Assembly (NCBI RefSeq): GCF_002487355.1
Contig: NZ_NTMG01000035.1
Coordinates: 1-56,811 of the forward strand
Length of the DNA: 56,811 nucleotides
Source: Candidatus Methanoperedens sp. BLZ2
Lineage (GTDB): Archaea; Halobacteriota; Methanosarcinia; Methanosarcinales; Methanoperedenaceae
Reading direction: 5' to 3'
A program made the position numbers and the translations under genes. The notes beneath the pieces were generated by a model, which saw nothing but the letters and a program-made list of their open reading frames with translations, ran no database searches and was not told the DNA's origin. Below, piece after piece: positions 15,268 to 22,678 of the stretch (position 1 is the first letter of the stretch; each line of letters starts with the position of its first letter).

Positions 15268-15820
15268 GAACAAGCCTCGAATCAAGTCGTCCCGTTAAAA
15301 TATATGCAAAGTCAAATGCAAAAAGAAGAAGTACTCCATTAAATCCGATCAAATCCAGAATAAAAAGCAGGAATAATCCAATTTTCAGGAACAGCCTGTA
15401 TTTGAATACAAGATGCATGCTTGAAATTTTTATTATCTCTCCCATTTCGTCAAAGAAAGCAAAAGCAGCGATCATGAATACAAGGGGTGAGAGTTTTATT
15501 CCGTTAAAAAATACTATTGCAAGTATCGCAGCAAGGCCGAAATAATGGCCGTTGCTGTTTATTTTTCCCGATACAAGACATCCGAGGCTGATCCCCCCGA
15601 AAATGAGGGCTGCATCAATATCAGCGATCATCATATATCCCATCAAAGATCCATATATAATTCCAAAAGGTATGGCAAAAAGTCGATTTATTCGCAGGTT
15701 CTTATCTGATATGTCGTCAGCAAGTTTTATCAAAGAACCGACCAGGCATCCAAGGATCAAAAGTGTTATTGATTGCACGCACCAGATGCTAATTTCATAA
15801 AGTAAATAGATTTCTGTCAA
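15257..15820 (-). CDS. Polytopic membrane protein, unknown (start supplied by IS end)
   Basis: A 187-residue protein with about six helices; a conserved-looking acidic site KLADDISDKN lies after the first helix and FDEMGEI after the fourth. I recognise no family. The DD motif after a helix is reminiscent of prenyl-transferring or CDP-alcohol enzymes but does not match them. It is cotranscribed with the reductase. The only upstream start in frame is a TTG at 15820 formed by the right end of the TnpB element, overlapping the tnpB stop; the original start may have been different. Confidence 0.6.
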   Translation of the reverse strand: MTEIYLLYEISIWCVQSITLLILGCLVGSLIKLADDISDKNLRINRLFAIPFGIIYGSLMGYMMIADIDAALIFGGISLGCLVSGKINSNGHYFGLAAILAIVFFNGIKLSPLVFMIAAFAFFDEMGEIIKISSMHLVFKYRLFLKIGLFLLFILDLIGFNGVLLLFAFDFAYILTGRLDSRLVHEI

Positions 15821-16962
15821 TTACCCCCGGTTGAAACCGGGGGCTTGTAACTATGCTCCATCTCAATTCCTGTTATGGCTTTGACTTCATTACATGCTAC
15901 TATCCGCTGATTGACTTCAACGGCTCTTGCAGCGATATTGATCGCTGCTATATGATCAGCATTGCCAGAGAAACCACACTGAACACATCTGAATGTATCT
16001 CGATCTGGTCTATTCGCTCTTTCGTTATGTCCACATTCAGGACAGATATGAGAAGTTCCCCTTGGATTCACAAGAACAACAGGAATACCAGCAATATTAG
16101 CCTTATATTCAATGAAACTTCTCAACTGATAGAACGCCCAGGAATGAAGACGGCTTCTCTGAGTCCTTCTTACCGTTACAGACTTGCGAATGCCCTTGAG
16201 GTCTTCAAGAGCTATCGCCTGTCTTGTGTCTTTGGCTTTAGCCACGATCTTCCTGGAAATAATATGATTAATGTCACGATGGAAACGGGCTTCCCTATTG
16301 GAAAGTCGTTTGAGATGCCGCATTGCGGATGGGGTGTTAGCTTCTTGCAGGTCAGTTCGCAGAGTTGCGTTTTTCTCTCTTACCTTATCAACCTGCTTAC
16401 CACTGAAAGTTTCCCCGTCATTATCAGTAGCAAGATACACGATTCCCAAATCAACCCCAAGAGTTCCAACAGCATCAACTTTGGAGGCTTCGGGGGCTTC
16501 AACCACAACCATAAGATAGAATATTCCATTTCTGAGAATAAGGTCAGCCTGACCCCTGATTCTGTCCAGTCTAACCTTTTGATATTCTCCCATACGGATA
16601 GGAACAGTCAGCCTTCCACTGTTGGTAAGGATAGATATGGCTTCCAGCTTTCGGAAGGACAGGATTCTTTGATCATAAACGATAGCTCCGGTAGGCTTGA
16701 ATGTCGGTTTGATGGTTTTATCCCGTTTATAGGATTCACAAACCTTAGCAATAGCCCTTATGGTAAGCTGTGCAGAAAGTTTAAATTTATCCCTGACATC
16801 ATAATAGACAAACTTTTGAAGTTCCCTCTTGTTTGCGGTTTTCAGTTCAAAAGCAATATCGGCAATATAATTACACGCTTCGTTAAACCTGTGCATGGTT
16901 TCAAGAATAGCACCATGCTGTTCCTTGTTTGTATCCAGTTTAACCACAAGCGTTTGTTTCAT
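15817..16962 (-). CDS. tnpB: TnpB RNA-guided nuclease, copy 1
   Basis: A 381-residue protein of the IS200/IS605 TnpB family, ancestor of Cas12. The split RuvC site looks intact: D171 in TLGVDLGI, E253 in ALEDLKGIR and D336 in GNADHIAA. The zinc finger has C307, C310, C326 and C329. It aligns without gaps to copy 2. TnpB cuts DNA next to a short TAM, guided by an RNA made from the element's 3' end. ATG at 16962 begins the conserved MKQTLVVKLDT; 16 upstream codons are not shared. The last codons form a hairpin that may be part of the guide RNA. Confidence 0.88.
   Translation of the reverse strand: MKQTLVVKLDTNKEQHGAILETMHRFNEACNYIADIAFELKTANKRELQKFVYYDVRDKFKLSAQLTIRAIAKVCESYKRDKTIKPTFKPTGAIVYDQRILSFRKLEAISILTNSGRLTVPIRMGEYQKVRLDRIRGQADLILRNGIFYLMVVVEAPEASKVDAVGTLGVDLGIVYLATDNDGETFSGKQVDKVREKNATLRTDLQEANTPSAMRHLKRLSNREARFHRDINHIISRKIVAKAKDTRQAIALEDLKGIRKSVTVRRTQRSRLHSWAFYQLRSFIEYKANIAGIPVVLVNPRGTSHICPECGHNERANRPDRDTFRCVQCGFSGNADHIAAINIAARAVEVNQRIVACNEVKAITGIEMEHSYKPPVSTGGN
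15824..15843 (-). other. Right-end hairpin, candidate omega/reRNA scaffold (copy 1)
   Basis: CCCCCGGT pairs with ACCGGGGG around a four-base loop, inside the last codons of tnpB. The same position in copy 2 also folds, with one G-C pair replaced by A-T. TnpB guide RNAs overlap the gene's 3' end and run through the right end into flanking DNA, which fits this location. It could also serve only as the transposase-recognised end. Confidence 0.55.
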
Positions 16963-17188
16963 ATCAAATATCCAATTGGGTATTCTCGTTATACCAATGG
17001 GTTTTATCAATGCTGTTCATATTGATATAAATGTTCAATCTGTATATATAGTTATTTGAAGGCGGGGTAAGATTTCTCTCCTGATTATAAATCAGGGGCT
17101 TCCTCTACCCCTGCACCCCAACGATGTGAATAAGAATTATATGTATCTGCCACATACATTGTCGTATGATTTCTTTAATTTTGATTGC

Positions 17189-19560: not shown

Positions 19561-19879
19561 GTCTATTTATTCTTTTGATCTTTATCGTATATGCTTTACA
19601 GCTCTAATCTAGTGCAGTTGGGTGTTCCATCTCAACGCTTAACTTATCTTATTTTAACTTATTTTACAGTTATGATTTCTACCTACCCTATTGTTTCTAC
19701 TGGAGATTTGCAGATTAGAATTAACTTTAATTGATTAGTTTTCTTTAATTGATCATTTTTGTGTTTTGATTGTTTAGCTTATAGTATTCTTTATAACAGT
19801 ACAATTATTTTTGTAACAAATAGAAATAACTTTTGCAATGATAGAAATCTTTATATATAGTTAGATCATAACTGGGTCA

Positions 19880-20174
19880 CATCGGTTTTTTAAAATTTTA
19901 AAAAAAAATAATCATAATCGTTTTTTTAAAATCTCCACACGAAATAATGGGGTGGGTTTACACGCTTTCCAGTGGAAACAATGGGGTCTGAAGGATAAAA
20001 TTTTACTTACATCACATACATTATGATATATATCATTAATAAAACGATATATTATGGCATCTTTTATGTATACGGGCATCTTCCGGACATCAGCATTTCC
20101 AATTGAAATAAAGGGGTCGTTACCATTACTCTTAATACCTATCCTTCCATTGGAGTAATCTACGAGGTTGAAGG
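19880..20174. other. Probable replication origin with ORB boxes upstream of orc1/cdc6
   Basis: The 600-base gap before orc1/cdc6 holds three origin-recognition boxes in the same direction: 19932-19954, 19966-19988 and 20096-20118. The second reads TTTCCAGTGGAAAC followed by AATGGGGTC, close to the archaeal ORB consensus; the others share the TCCA...GAAA...GGGGT pattern. A weaker fourth is at 20144-20168. AT-rich tracts (19890-19932, and ATATATCATTAATAAAACG near 20029) could be the unwinding region. 19561-19880 holds no gene that I can see. Confidence 0.8.
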
Positions 20175-21416
20175 ATGGAGACAAAAAAAACATCAATAAA
20201 TGGCATTTTCGAAGATATGTTGATGCGTGCAACGATCTTTGAGAATAGAGAGGTACTGAGATCTACATATACTCCGGATTATCTTCCGCACAGGAACGAT
20301 CAGGTAAAAGGATTGGCTACCATATTAGTTTCAGCCTTAAGGGGCGAAACCCCTTCTAATATCCTGATATACGGAAAGACCGGGACAGGTAAAACCGCTG
20401 TAGCAAAACACGTAGGCAATGAACTTGTGAGAACAAGTGAAACGCATGACATTCCATGCGTTGTTGTATATATTAACTGTGAAGTTGTGGACACGCAATA
20501 TCGTTTGCTGGCATCCATTGCACGGCATTTCGAGAAGGACATTCCTATGACAGGATGGCCGACTGACCAGGTATATTCTGAACTAAAAAGCGCTCTTGAT
20601 GTTGATAAACGCATAGCTATAATAATACTTGATGAGGTTGATAAGCTTGTGTGCAAAGGAGACGATGTTCTTTACAATCTTACCAGGATAAATTCGGACT
20701 TGAAAAAATCAAAAGTCAGTCTTATCGGTATCACGAACGATCTTAAATTCACGGAATTCCTCGATCCAAGGGTTAAAAGTTCACTGGGCGAAGAAGAGAT
20801 TATTTTCCCTCCTTATGATGCAAACCAGATAAGGGATATCCTTAACCAGAGAGCGCAGATGGCATTTAAACCCCAGGTACTGGAAGAGACTGTTATCCCT
20901 CTTTGTGCTGCTTACGCAGCTCAGGAGCATGGAGATGCAAGACGTGCACTGGACCTTTTGCGGGTATCAGGAGAGATCGCAGAACGAATAAAGTCGAGTA
21001 AGGTACTTGAAGCGCATGTCAAACAGGCACAGGAGAAAATAGAAATAGACAGGATAGTGGAGGTAGTAAGGACCCTGCCAAGCCAGTCTAAACTTGTTCT
21101 ATTAAGTGTGGTCCTCCTCGGATACAATGGCGACAGTAACCTCACAACGGGCGAAGCGTATAATATTTACAAGCAGATGTGCAGATTGATAGGAATAGAA
21201 ATCCTGACCCAGCGAAGGGTTACGGATCTGATATCCGAACTTGATATGATGGGTATTCTGAATGCAACTGTTGTAAGTAAAGGAAGGTACGGAAGGACCA
21301 AAGAAATCTCTTTGAGCGTCCCTTCCGAAAGCACTAAACGGGTTTTATTTGAAGATTACAGGTTAAAACCGCTGGAAGATTTCAAGCCGCCCAACCAGAC
21401 AAAATTGTATGCCTGA
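20175..21416 (+). CDS. Orc1/Cdc6 family replication initiator
   Basis: A 413-residue AAA+ protein with a C-terminal winged helix. Walker A YGKTGTGKT covers residues 66-74, Walker B IILDEVDKL 150-158, and sensor 1 GITND follows. The Orc1-type initiator-specific motif is in the AAA domain and the winged helix (LTTGEAYNIYKQMCRLIG...RRVTDLISELDMMGIL) recognises the ORB GGGGT end. It binds and melts the origin; the ORB array lies directly upstream, the usual arrangement. Confidence 0.95.
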   Translation: METKKTSINGIFEDMLMRATIFENREVLRSTYTPDYLPHRNDQVKGLATILVSALRGETPSNILIYGKTGTGKTAVAKHVGNELVRTSETHDIPCVVVYINCEVVDTQYRLLASIARHFEKDIPMTGWPTDQVYSELKSALDVDKRIAIIILDEVDKLVCKGDDVLYNLTRINSDLKKSKVSLIGITNDLKFTEFLDPRVKSSLGEEEIIFPPYDANQIRDILNQRAQMAFKPQVLEETVIPLCAAYAAQEHGDARRALDLLRVSGEIAERIKSSKVLEAHVKQAQEKIEIDRIVEVVRTLPSQSKLVLLSVVLLGYNGDSNLTTGEAYNIYKQMCRLIGIEILTQRRVTDLISELDMMGILNATVVSKGRYGRTKEISLSVPSESTKRVLFEDYRLKPLEDFKPPNQTKLYA

Positions 21417-21439: not shown

Positions 21440-22021
21440 TCACTTAAAACATGCAAAATTCCCTCTGGGAATAAGCGAAATACACCCGAGCAATGGTACC
21501 CTGCCAAATCTTGCTTTTCCGATCACCCATTCTTTCTTAATAGGCTGCAGGTGGCTTATGCTGCCTTGCTGGTCATATGCAGCATTGGTTCTGCTGTTAT
21601 CACCTTTTGTAATGTAGCCTGCATGTGGGGCAAGAGGTCCTCCCGGCCACATAGGTTCGCTTTCGTTGATATAATACATGGCGCGATGGATTATTGGGGT
21701 TGTCCCTTCCATTCCACGTGGTTTGTATAAGATGACATCGCCATATTCGTCAAAAGACAAATAATTCAATTTTTTTCCTGCTTCATTTGTGATTATTTCC
21801 GTGCGGTCGATACTTTCGACAAATATGATATCACCGATCTGGATGTGGGGGATCATGCTCCCGCTTTCTACTGCTACCATTGGTGTATATAGTCCCAATG
21901 CGATCTTTGAAACCGAGGCAAAAATAACTACAACTGTGATAACAAAAACCAAATCACGCAAAAGTCCAGCCCAGAAACTATCACTTTCTTTAAAATATTT
22001 TATTATGTTTTTTAAATCCAT
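21440..22021 (-). CDS. Signal peptidase I (archaeal type), paralogue 1
   Basis: A 193-residue membrane protease that removes signal peptides outside the cell. One N-terminal membrane helix (about residues 21-42) precedes the catalytic Ser55 in VESGSMIPH. Archaeal/ER-type enzymes use His rather than Lys: His112 in PIIHRAMYY, with Asp141 in YITKGDN completing the set. About 70 percent identical by eye to the next gene, so a tandem duplicate. Confidence 0.88.
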   Translation of the reverse strand: MDLKNIIKYFKESDSFWAGLLRDLVFVITVVVIFASVSKIALGLYTPMVAVESGSMIPHIQIGDIIFVESIDRTEIITNEAGKKLNYLSFDEYGDVILYKPRGMEGTTPIIHRAMYYINESEPMWPGGPLAPHAGYITKGDNSRTNAAYDQQGSISHLQPIKKEWVIGKARFGRVPLLGCISLIPRGNFACFK

Positions 22022-22093: not shown

Positions 22094-22678
22094 CTACTGG
22101 TTAAAACACGCCGGATTTCCTCTCATGGTGAGTGGAACACACCCGATCAAAGGTATTGGTCTAAAACGGGCGACACCAATTATCCATTCCTTCTTGACAG
22201 GCTGCAAATAACTTATGCTCCCCTGCTGGTCGTATACTGCATTTGTATTGTCATTATCCCCTTTTGTAATATATCCCGCATAGGGAGCAGAAGGCCCGCC
22301 CGGCCACATAGGTTCGTCTTTATTGACATAATACATGGCTCGATGAATAATAGGGGTTCTTTTCTCATTTCCGGAACGCATGTATAAAATCACATCACCG
22401 TAATAACCAAAAGATAAATACCCGGTTTTTTTACCTTCTTCATATGTTATAATTTTCGAGCGGTCCGAGCTTTCAATAAAGATTATATCCCCTATATTTA
22501 AATTCGGGACCATACTTTTACTTTCCACTGCTACCATAGGGGAAAAGCGGCCAAGCGCAATGTAAGAGATCGAGGAAAAAATCGCAACCACTATAAGCAC
22601 AAATAAAAAATCCCTAAAAAGCCCGATCCAGAAATTATCGCTTTCCTTTATTTTTTTTATCGTTTCTTTTATCCCCAT
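22094..22678 (-). CDS. Signal peptidase I (archaeal type), paralogue 2
   Basis: A 194-residue paralogue with Ser55 in VESKSMVPN, His112 in PIIHRAMYY and Asp141 in YITKGDN. All catalytic positions are in register with paralogue 1. The main differences are the residue between the two serines (K instead of G) and the stretch 86-106, near the substrate cleft. It lies 72 bases upstream on the same strand; both may be transcribed together. Confidence 0.88.
   Translation of the reverse strand: MGIKETIKKIKESDNFWIGLFRDFLFVLIVVAIFSSISYIALGRFSPMVAVESKSMVPNLNIGDIIFIESSDRSKIITYEEGKKTGYLSFGYYGDVILYMRSGNEKRTPIIHRAMYYVNKDEPMWPGGPSAPYAGYITKGDNDNTNAVYDQQGSISYLQPVKKEWIIGVARFRPIPLIGCVPLTMRGNPACFNQ

Follow-up and report, generated by a model that had tools for sequence, protein, structure and literature searches.

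We describe here a candidate chromosomal replication origin in the genome of the methane-consuming archaeon Candidatus Methanoperedens sp. BLZ2, situated upstream of an orc1/cdc6 initiator gene. The window analyzed is the whole of contig C46 (56,811 bp), from an assembly of 3.74 Mb in 85 contigs that is 99.99% complete, and we put the probability that the element is an oriC1-type chromosomal origin of this archaeon at roughly 0.92. This reading draws on a neighboring gene of the Orc1-1 type, on origin recognition boxes (ORBs) that exceed chance expectation and are inverted around an AT-rich segment, on the preservation of ORB-contacting winged-helix residues in the gene product, and on an orthologous locus that is conserved in 30/30 Methanoperedenaceae. 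Once the inverted box is counted, this is an ordinary archaeal oriC1-type origin, of a kind already known. An initial annotation of the same DNA had predicted an ORB-containing origin upstream of orc1/cdc6, and motif, gene, AT-rich segment, and conservation all speak for that prediction.

A search with the box pattern TTTCCANTNGAAAYAAWGGGGTC, tolerating up to three mismatches, finds four matches in the window, where shuffled sequences give an expectation of 0.01. Three are on the forward strand at the positions given by the initial annotation, with their GGGGT ends facing orc1: ORB 1 (TCTCCACACGAAATAATGGGGTG, 19932-19954) and ORB 2 (TTTCCAGTGGAAACAATGGGGTC, 19966-19988), whose starts are 34 bp apart as had been noted, and ORB 3 (TTTCCAATTGAAATAAAGGGGTC, 20096-20118). 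The fourth (TCTCCAGTAGAAACAATAGGGTA, 19684-19706) is on the reverse strand with three mismatches to the consensus, and falls within an aligned block kept among divergent relatives. The claim that all of the boxes point the same way is correct for the three forward ORBs but does not hold for the whole origin, which also has the conserved reverse box, outside the stretch to which the claim referred; the order along the origin is reverse ORB, AT-rich segment, three forward ORBs, and orc1. A weight matrix derived from 148 distinct ORBs in origins of other species, with the window and its nearest relatives excluded, gives a score of 31.0 for the reverse ORB and scores of 31.5, 36.4, and 34.7 for forward ORBs 1, 2, and 3; as controls, the reversed matrix scores no higher than 3.9 in the window, and simulated or reversed controls score no higher than about 20 for a 545-kb contig that carries an orthologous origin. 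The low complexity of the region is all that could be said for chance matches in AT-rich intergenic DNA, a reading that the excess over expectation, the reversed-matrix control, and the conservation in relatives together rule out for all practical purposes. The same pattern search identifies no second ORB cluster in the assembly, and the remaining boxes are single.

The segment between the inverted ORBs (19707-19931, 225 bp) is 80% AT compared with 60% for the window, and is the AT-richest 225-mer in it, rivalled solely by its own 1-bp shifts. It contains an 18-bp tandem repeat (19725-19760), and by analogy with known origins it is likely to be the duplex unwinding element (DUE). A perfect palindrome, ATGATATATATCAT, is present between forward ORBs 2 and 3 (20023-20036), and was dropped as a functional element because a single close relative is the only other aligned sequence that has it. 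Scans of the window for tRNA genes and Rfam families gave no matches.

The arrangement is well conserved in a comparison of 30 non-redundant Methanoperedenaceae origins and 52 other origins of the order, covering 1.2 kb. The reverse box lies to the left of the AT-rich segment in all 30 of the family's origins, 23 of which have one reverse and three forward boxes and seven of which have one reverse and two forward boxes, with the reverse box invariably on the far side. Outside the family it is present in 33 of 52 origins, on the far side in every one, and some further reverse boxes may sit farther out than the 1.2 kb compared. Spacing behaves differently. Forward ORB 2 starts 34 bp after ORB 1 in the window's clade and 32-40 bp after it across the Methanoperedenaceae, whereas outside the family the spacing is exactly 39 bp in 28/29 origins; the spacing of ORBs 2 and 3 within the family is 125-140 bp, most frequently 129 bp. 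With 10.5 bp to the helical turn, spacings of 34 and 39 bp are about half a turn out of phase, so neither the exact ORB 1-ORB 2 spacing nor a particular face of the DNA is a conserved property, and the suggestion in the initial annotation that the two boxes permit cooperative loading on one DNA face is rejected.

The orc1/cdc6 gene (20175-21416, forward strand) encodes a 413-residue Orc1-1-type initiator that matches NF001625 at 675.6 bits (cut-off 501) as well as Pfam Cdc6_C and Cdc6_lid. Its closest solved structures are Sulfolobus solfataricus Orc1-1 (2qby_A, E 7.6e-119) and Aeropyrum pernix Orc1 (2v1u_A, E 1e-108), and its nearest named relatives are encoded in Candidatus Methanoperedens (ANME-2d) genomes, with about 81-97% identity. 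Four winged-helix arginines are reported to contact ORBs (PMC9738581), and the window's Orc1 retains ORB-contacting residues R347, R348, and R371, with the fourth arginine replaced by K369. The two other full-length Orc1 paralogues of the genome are without the RR pair, and the product of this gene is therefore likely to be the genome's ORB reader. These paralogues do raise the possibility of an inactive or dormant origin in this archaeon, and haloarchaea are known to have dormant origins linked to orc genes (PMC4595724). However, the region contains the genome's only ORB cluster, all four of its boxes score highly, and it adjoins the sole full-length paralogue with the RR pair, and we regard dormancy as very improbable.

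Between ORB 3 and orc1 there is a block, ACCA..A.T.TTAATACC (20120-20139, forward strand), that is near-invariant and at a constant distance from ORB 3 in an alignment of 26 origins, and which reads as the putative B recognition element (BRE) and TATA element of orc1. ORB 3 is directly 5' of this core-promoter-like block, and in 29 of the 30 Methanoperedenaceae the orc1 start follows the beginning of the final forward ORB by 77-94 bp. Because ORB 3 abuts the conserved core promoter, the geometry suggests that Orc1 may regulate its own promoter from this box. The same proximity could be taken to mean that the boxes serve chiefly to regulate the orc1 promoter, with replication beginning at another site or at no fixed origin; single ORBs also lie near promoters of other genes, and some archaea can replicate without an origin (PMC5663688). 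But the reverse box and AT-rich segment, at a distance of about 240-490 bp from the orc1 start codon, are on the side away from the promoter, both persist in 30/30 relatives, and a promoter array has no need of inverted boxes around an AT-rich stretch. We therefore consider a mainly regulatory array unlikely, though somewhat less so than dormancy, and favor the replication origin.

Origin activity and Orc1 binding at this locus are predictions from sequence, and strand skew does not decide the matter in either direction. The assembly is a metagenome-assembled genome in 85 contigs; skew was read on the window and on the 545-kb contig with the orthologous origin, using GC and purine measures, uncorrected as well as at fourfold sites with the coding strand taken into account. 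The initial annotation had named skew beforehand as a check, and the outcome is mixed: both contigs have a local dip, but in neither does orc1 mark the global minimum. Cumulative GC skew in the window has a local low at about 16-20 kb but falls lower still at 46-48 and 56 kb; the 545-kb contig has only a local dip near orc1, and its corrected fourfold-site skew fits a split elsewhere slightly better.

By extension from work on Sulfolobus and haloarchaea, we propose that ATP-bound Orc1 monomers would sit on the inverted ORBs, with the winged helix on the ORB dyad and the AAA+ domain with its initiator-specific motif (ISM) on the G-string. The AT-rich segment bounded by the reverse ORB and forward ORB 1 would then be the place to which Orc1 brings MCM hexamers, where the DNA opens and from which two forks depart, while the ORB 1-ORB 2 pair could supply additional initiator binding on the orc1 side and ORB 3 could let Orc1 control its own gene. 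Both inverted ORBs are required in vivo at oriC1 of S. islandicus (PMC12141716), and deletion of either inverted ORB impairs oriC1 of Haloarcula hispanica (PMC3936714). The predicted origin could serve as a well-defined basis for studying replication, or for building a shuttle replicon, in Methanoperedens. We know of no genetic system for Methanoperedens.

Close to the origin, two tandem and similar signal-peptidase-I-like genes (21440-22021 and 22094-22678) are convergent with orc1. Elsewhere in the window, a gene at 15817-17010 encodes a TnpB-family RNA-guided nuclease, and no TnpA was noticed next to it.

ORB-like boxes are also found singly away from the origin, and at up to three mismatches there are seven in the window's genome, compared with none for the reversed pattern; six of the seven have matrix scores above 26. 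In a survey of 21 Methanoperedens genomes, 66 of 68 off-origin boxes fall outside open reading frames (ORFs), where roughly 15-20% would be expected by chance, as ORFs occupy about 85% of the 545-kb contig. Simple binomial probabilities overstate the significance of this placement because the sites are shared by descent, and the stronger argument is that boxes are retained in a clade-restricted and locus-specific manner amid intergenic DNA that has otherwise diverged. The radA box (contig C74:19218-19240 in the window's genome, between an RPA-like OB-fold gene and radA) is present at 12 of the 26 Methanoperedens loci compared, exclusively in the window's clade (12/13 testable there), and is upstream of a core promoter common to genomes without the box. 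The mcm box occupies 7/19 loci at positions -82 to -241 in the sister clade, and all seven genomes are without the radA box.

The most widely distributed of these boxes lies upstream of a gene for a protein with a winged helix at its end (contig C5:54560-54582). It has a fixed orientation, is usually at about -320, and is present in 26 of 31 Methanoperedenaceae; in two other families of the order it is at -277 to -376 in 10/12 loci, and five loci examined in a third family yielded no such box. The divergent neighbor is acetyl-CoA synthetase in the Methanoperedenaceae and by sequence resembles a proteasome-activating ATPase or an amidohydrolase in the other two families; the box thus follows the winged-helix gene and not its neighbor. 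The protein has no Pfam or NCBIfam match, and fold and family searches return generic winged-helix regulators only. Many of these promoters have a degenerate box adjoining a TATATATA-like element; the BLZ2 locus has one strong and one degenerate box, and two relatives have two strong boxes 212 bp apart. Such a locus may be a second ORB origin, but the window's genome has no second cluster of strong ORBs and most genomes have one strong box. Further single ORB-like boxes are at C14:94303, C27:109206, C16:10498, and C74:7129, near genes for a beta-propeller protein, a glyoxalase, a LarE/malic-enzyme region, and a radical SAM protein.

There are several plausible roles for the dispersed boxes. 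They could be initiator-titration sites, or could be bound by a different protein whose motif resembles the ORB. No dense cluster of the datA or oriC2D kind is present among the off-origin boxes of the window's genome, which are single, and titration may instead involve dispersed single sites. The placement of boxes at orc1, mcm, and radA favors regulatory sites for Orc1, and we advance tentatively, at somewhat below even odds, the proposal that Orc1-1 of the Methanosarcinales also regulates transcription through single conserved promoter ORBs (orc1, radA, mcm, and the winged-helix gene). We found no report of ORBs at mcm or radA promoters, or of such an Orc1 regulon, in the open-access literature. 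If the proposal is correct, the expression of genes for replication and recombination would be tied to initiation, in the manner of bacterial DnaA. The dispersed conserved ORBs weigh more than the origin in this regard, as they predict a replication-linked archaeal regulon testable in Methanosarcina-type relatives, which also have the winged-helix-gene box and for which genetics exist.

These putative regulatory sites have parallels in other systems. In Sulfolobus, the hexamer ANTTTC is bound by Orc1-2, a paralogue that is not an initiator (PMC9738581), and the regulon proposed here would resemble this damage-response regulator in using an Orc1-family protein as a promoter-binding regulator; unlike Orc1-2, the off-origin motif is not that hexamer but the full ORB, the initiator's own box. 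Bacterial DnaA boxes outside oriC serve in dnaA autoregulation and datA titration (PMC3936714), and as in that system the initiator motif occurs beside the promoter of the initiator gene as well as elsewhere on the chromosome, although the initiators are unrelated and the archaeal single boxes are known here from their sequences.

The origin itself is similar to several known or predicted ones. Haloarchaeal oriC1 origins are linked to orc1/cdc6 and have inverted ORBs with a G-string, and as in Haloarcula hispanica and other haloarchaea the boxes here are inverted around an AT-rich segment beside cdc6. A signal-peptidase gene next to cdc6, here at 21440-22021, is also described for haloarchaeal oriC1 (PMC4010727), whereas the minimal haloarchaeal oriC1 has one initiator-side ORB where there are three forward ORBs here. 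For predicted oriC regions of Methanomicrobia (DoriC/Ori-Finder 2), the ORB motif is TCCA[GC]T[GT]GAAA[CT][AG]A[AT]GGGGT (PMC4164010); forward ORB 2 fits this expression exactly, and ORB 1, ORB 3, and the reverse box deviate from it at one or more positions. Relative to Sulfolobus oriC1, the 225-bp gap between reverse and forward boxes differs from the 130-bp ORB3-DUE-ORB2 region (PMC12141716), but the two origins are alike in having inverted ORBs around an AT-rich segment (ORB2-DUE-ORB3 in Sulfolobus) together with an initiator of the Orc1-1 type.
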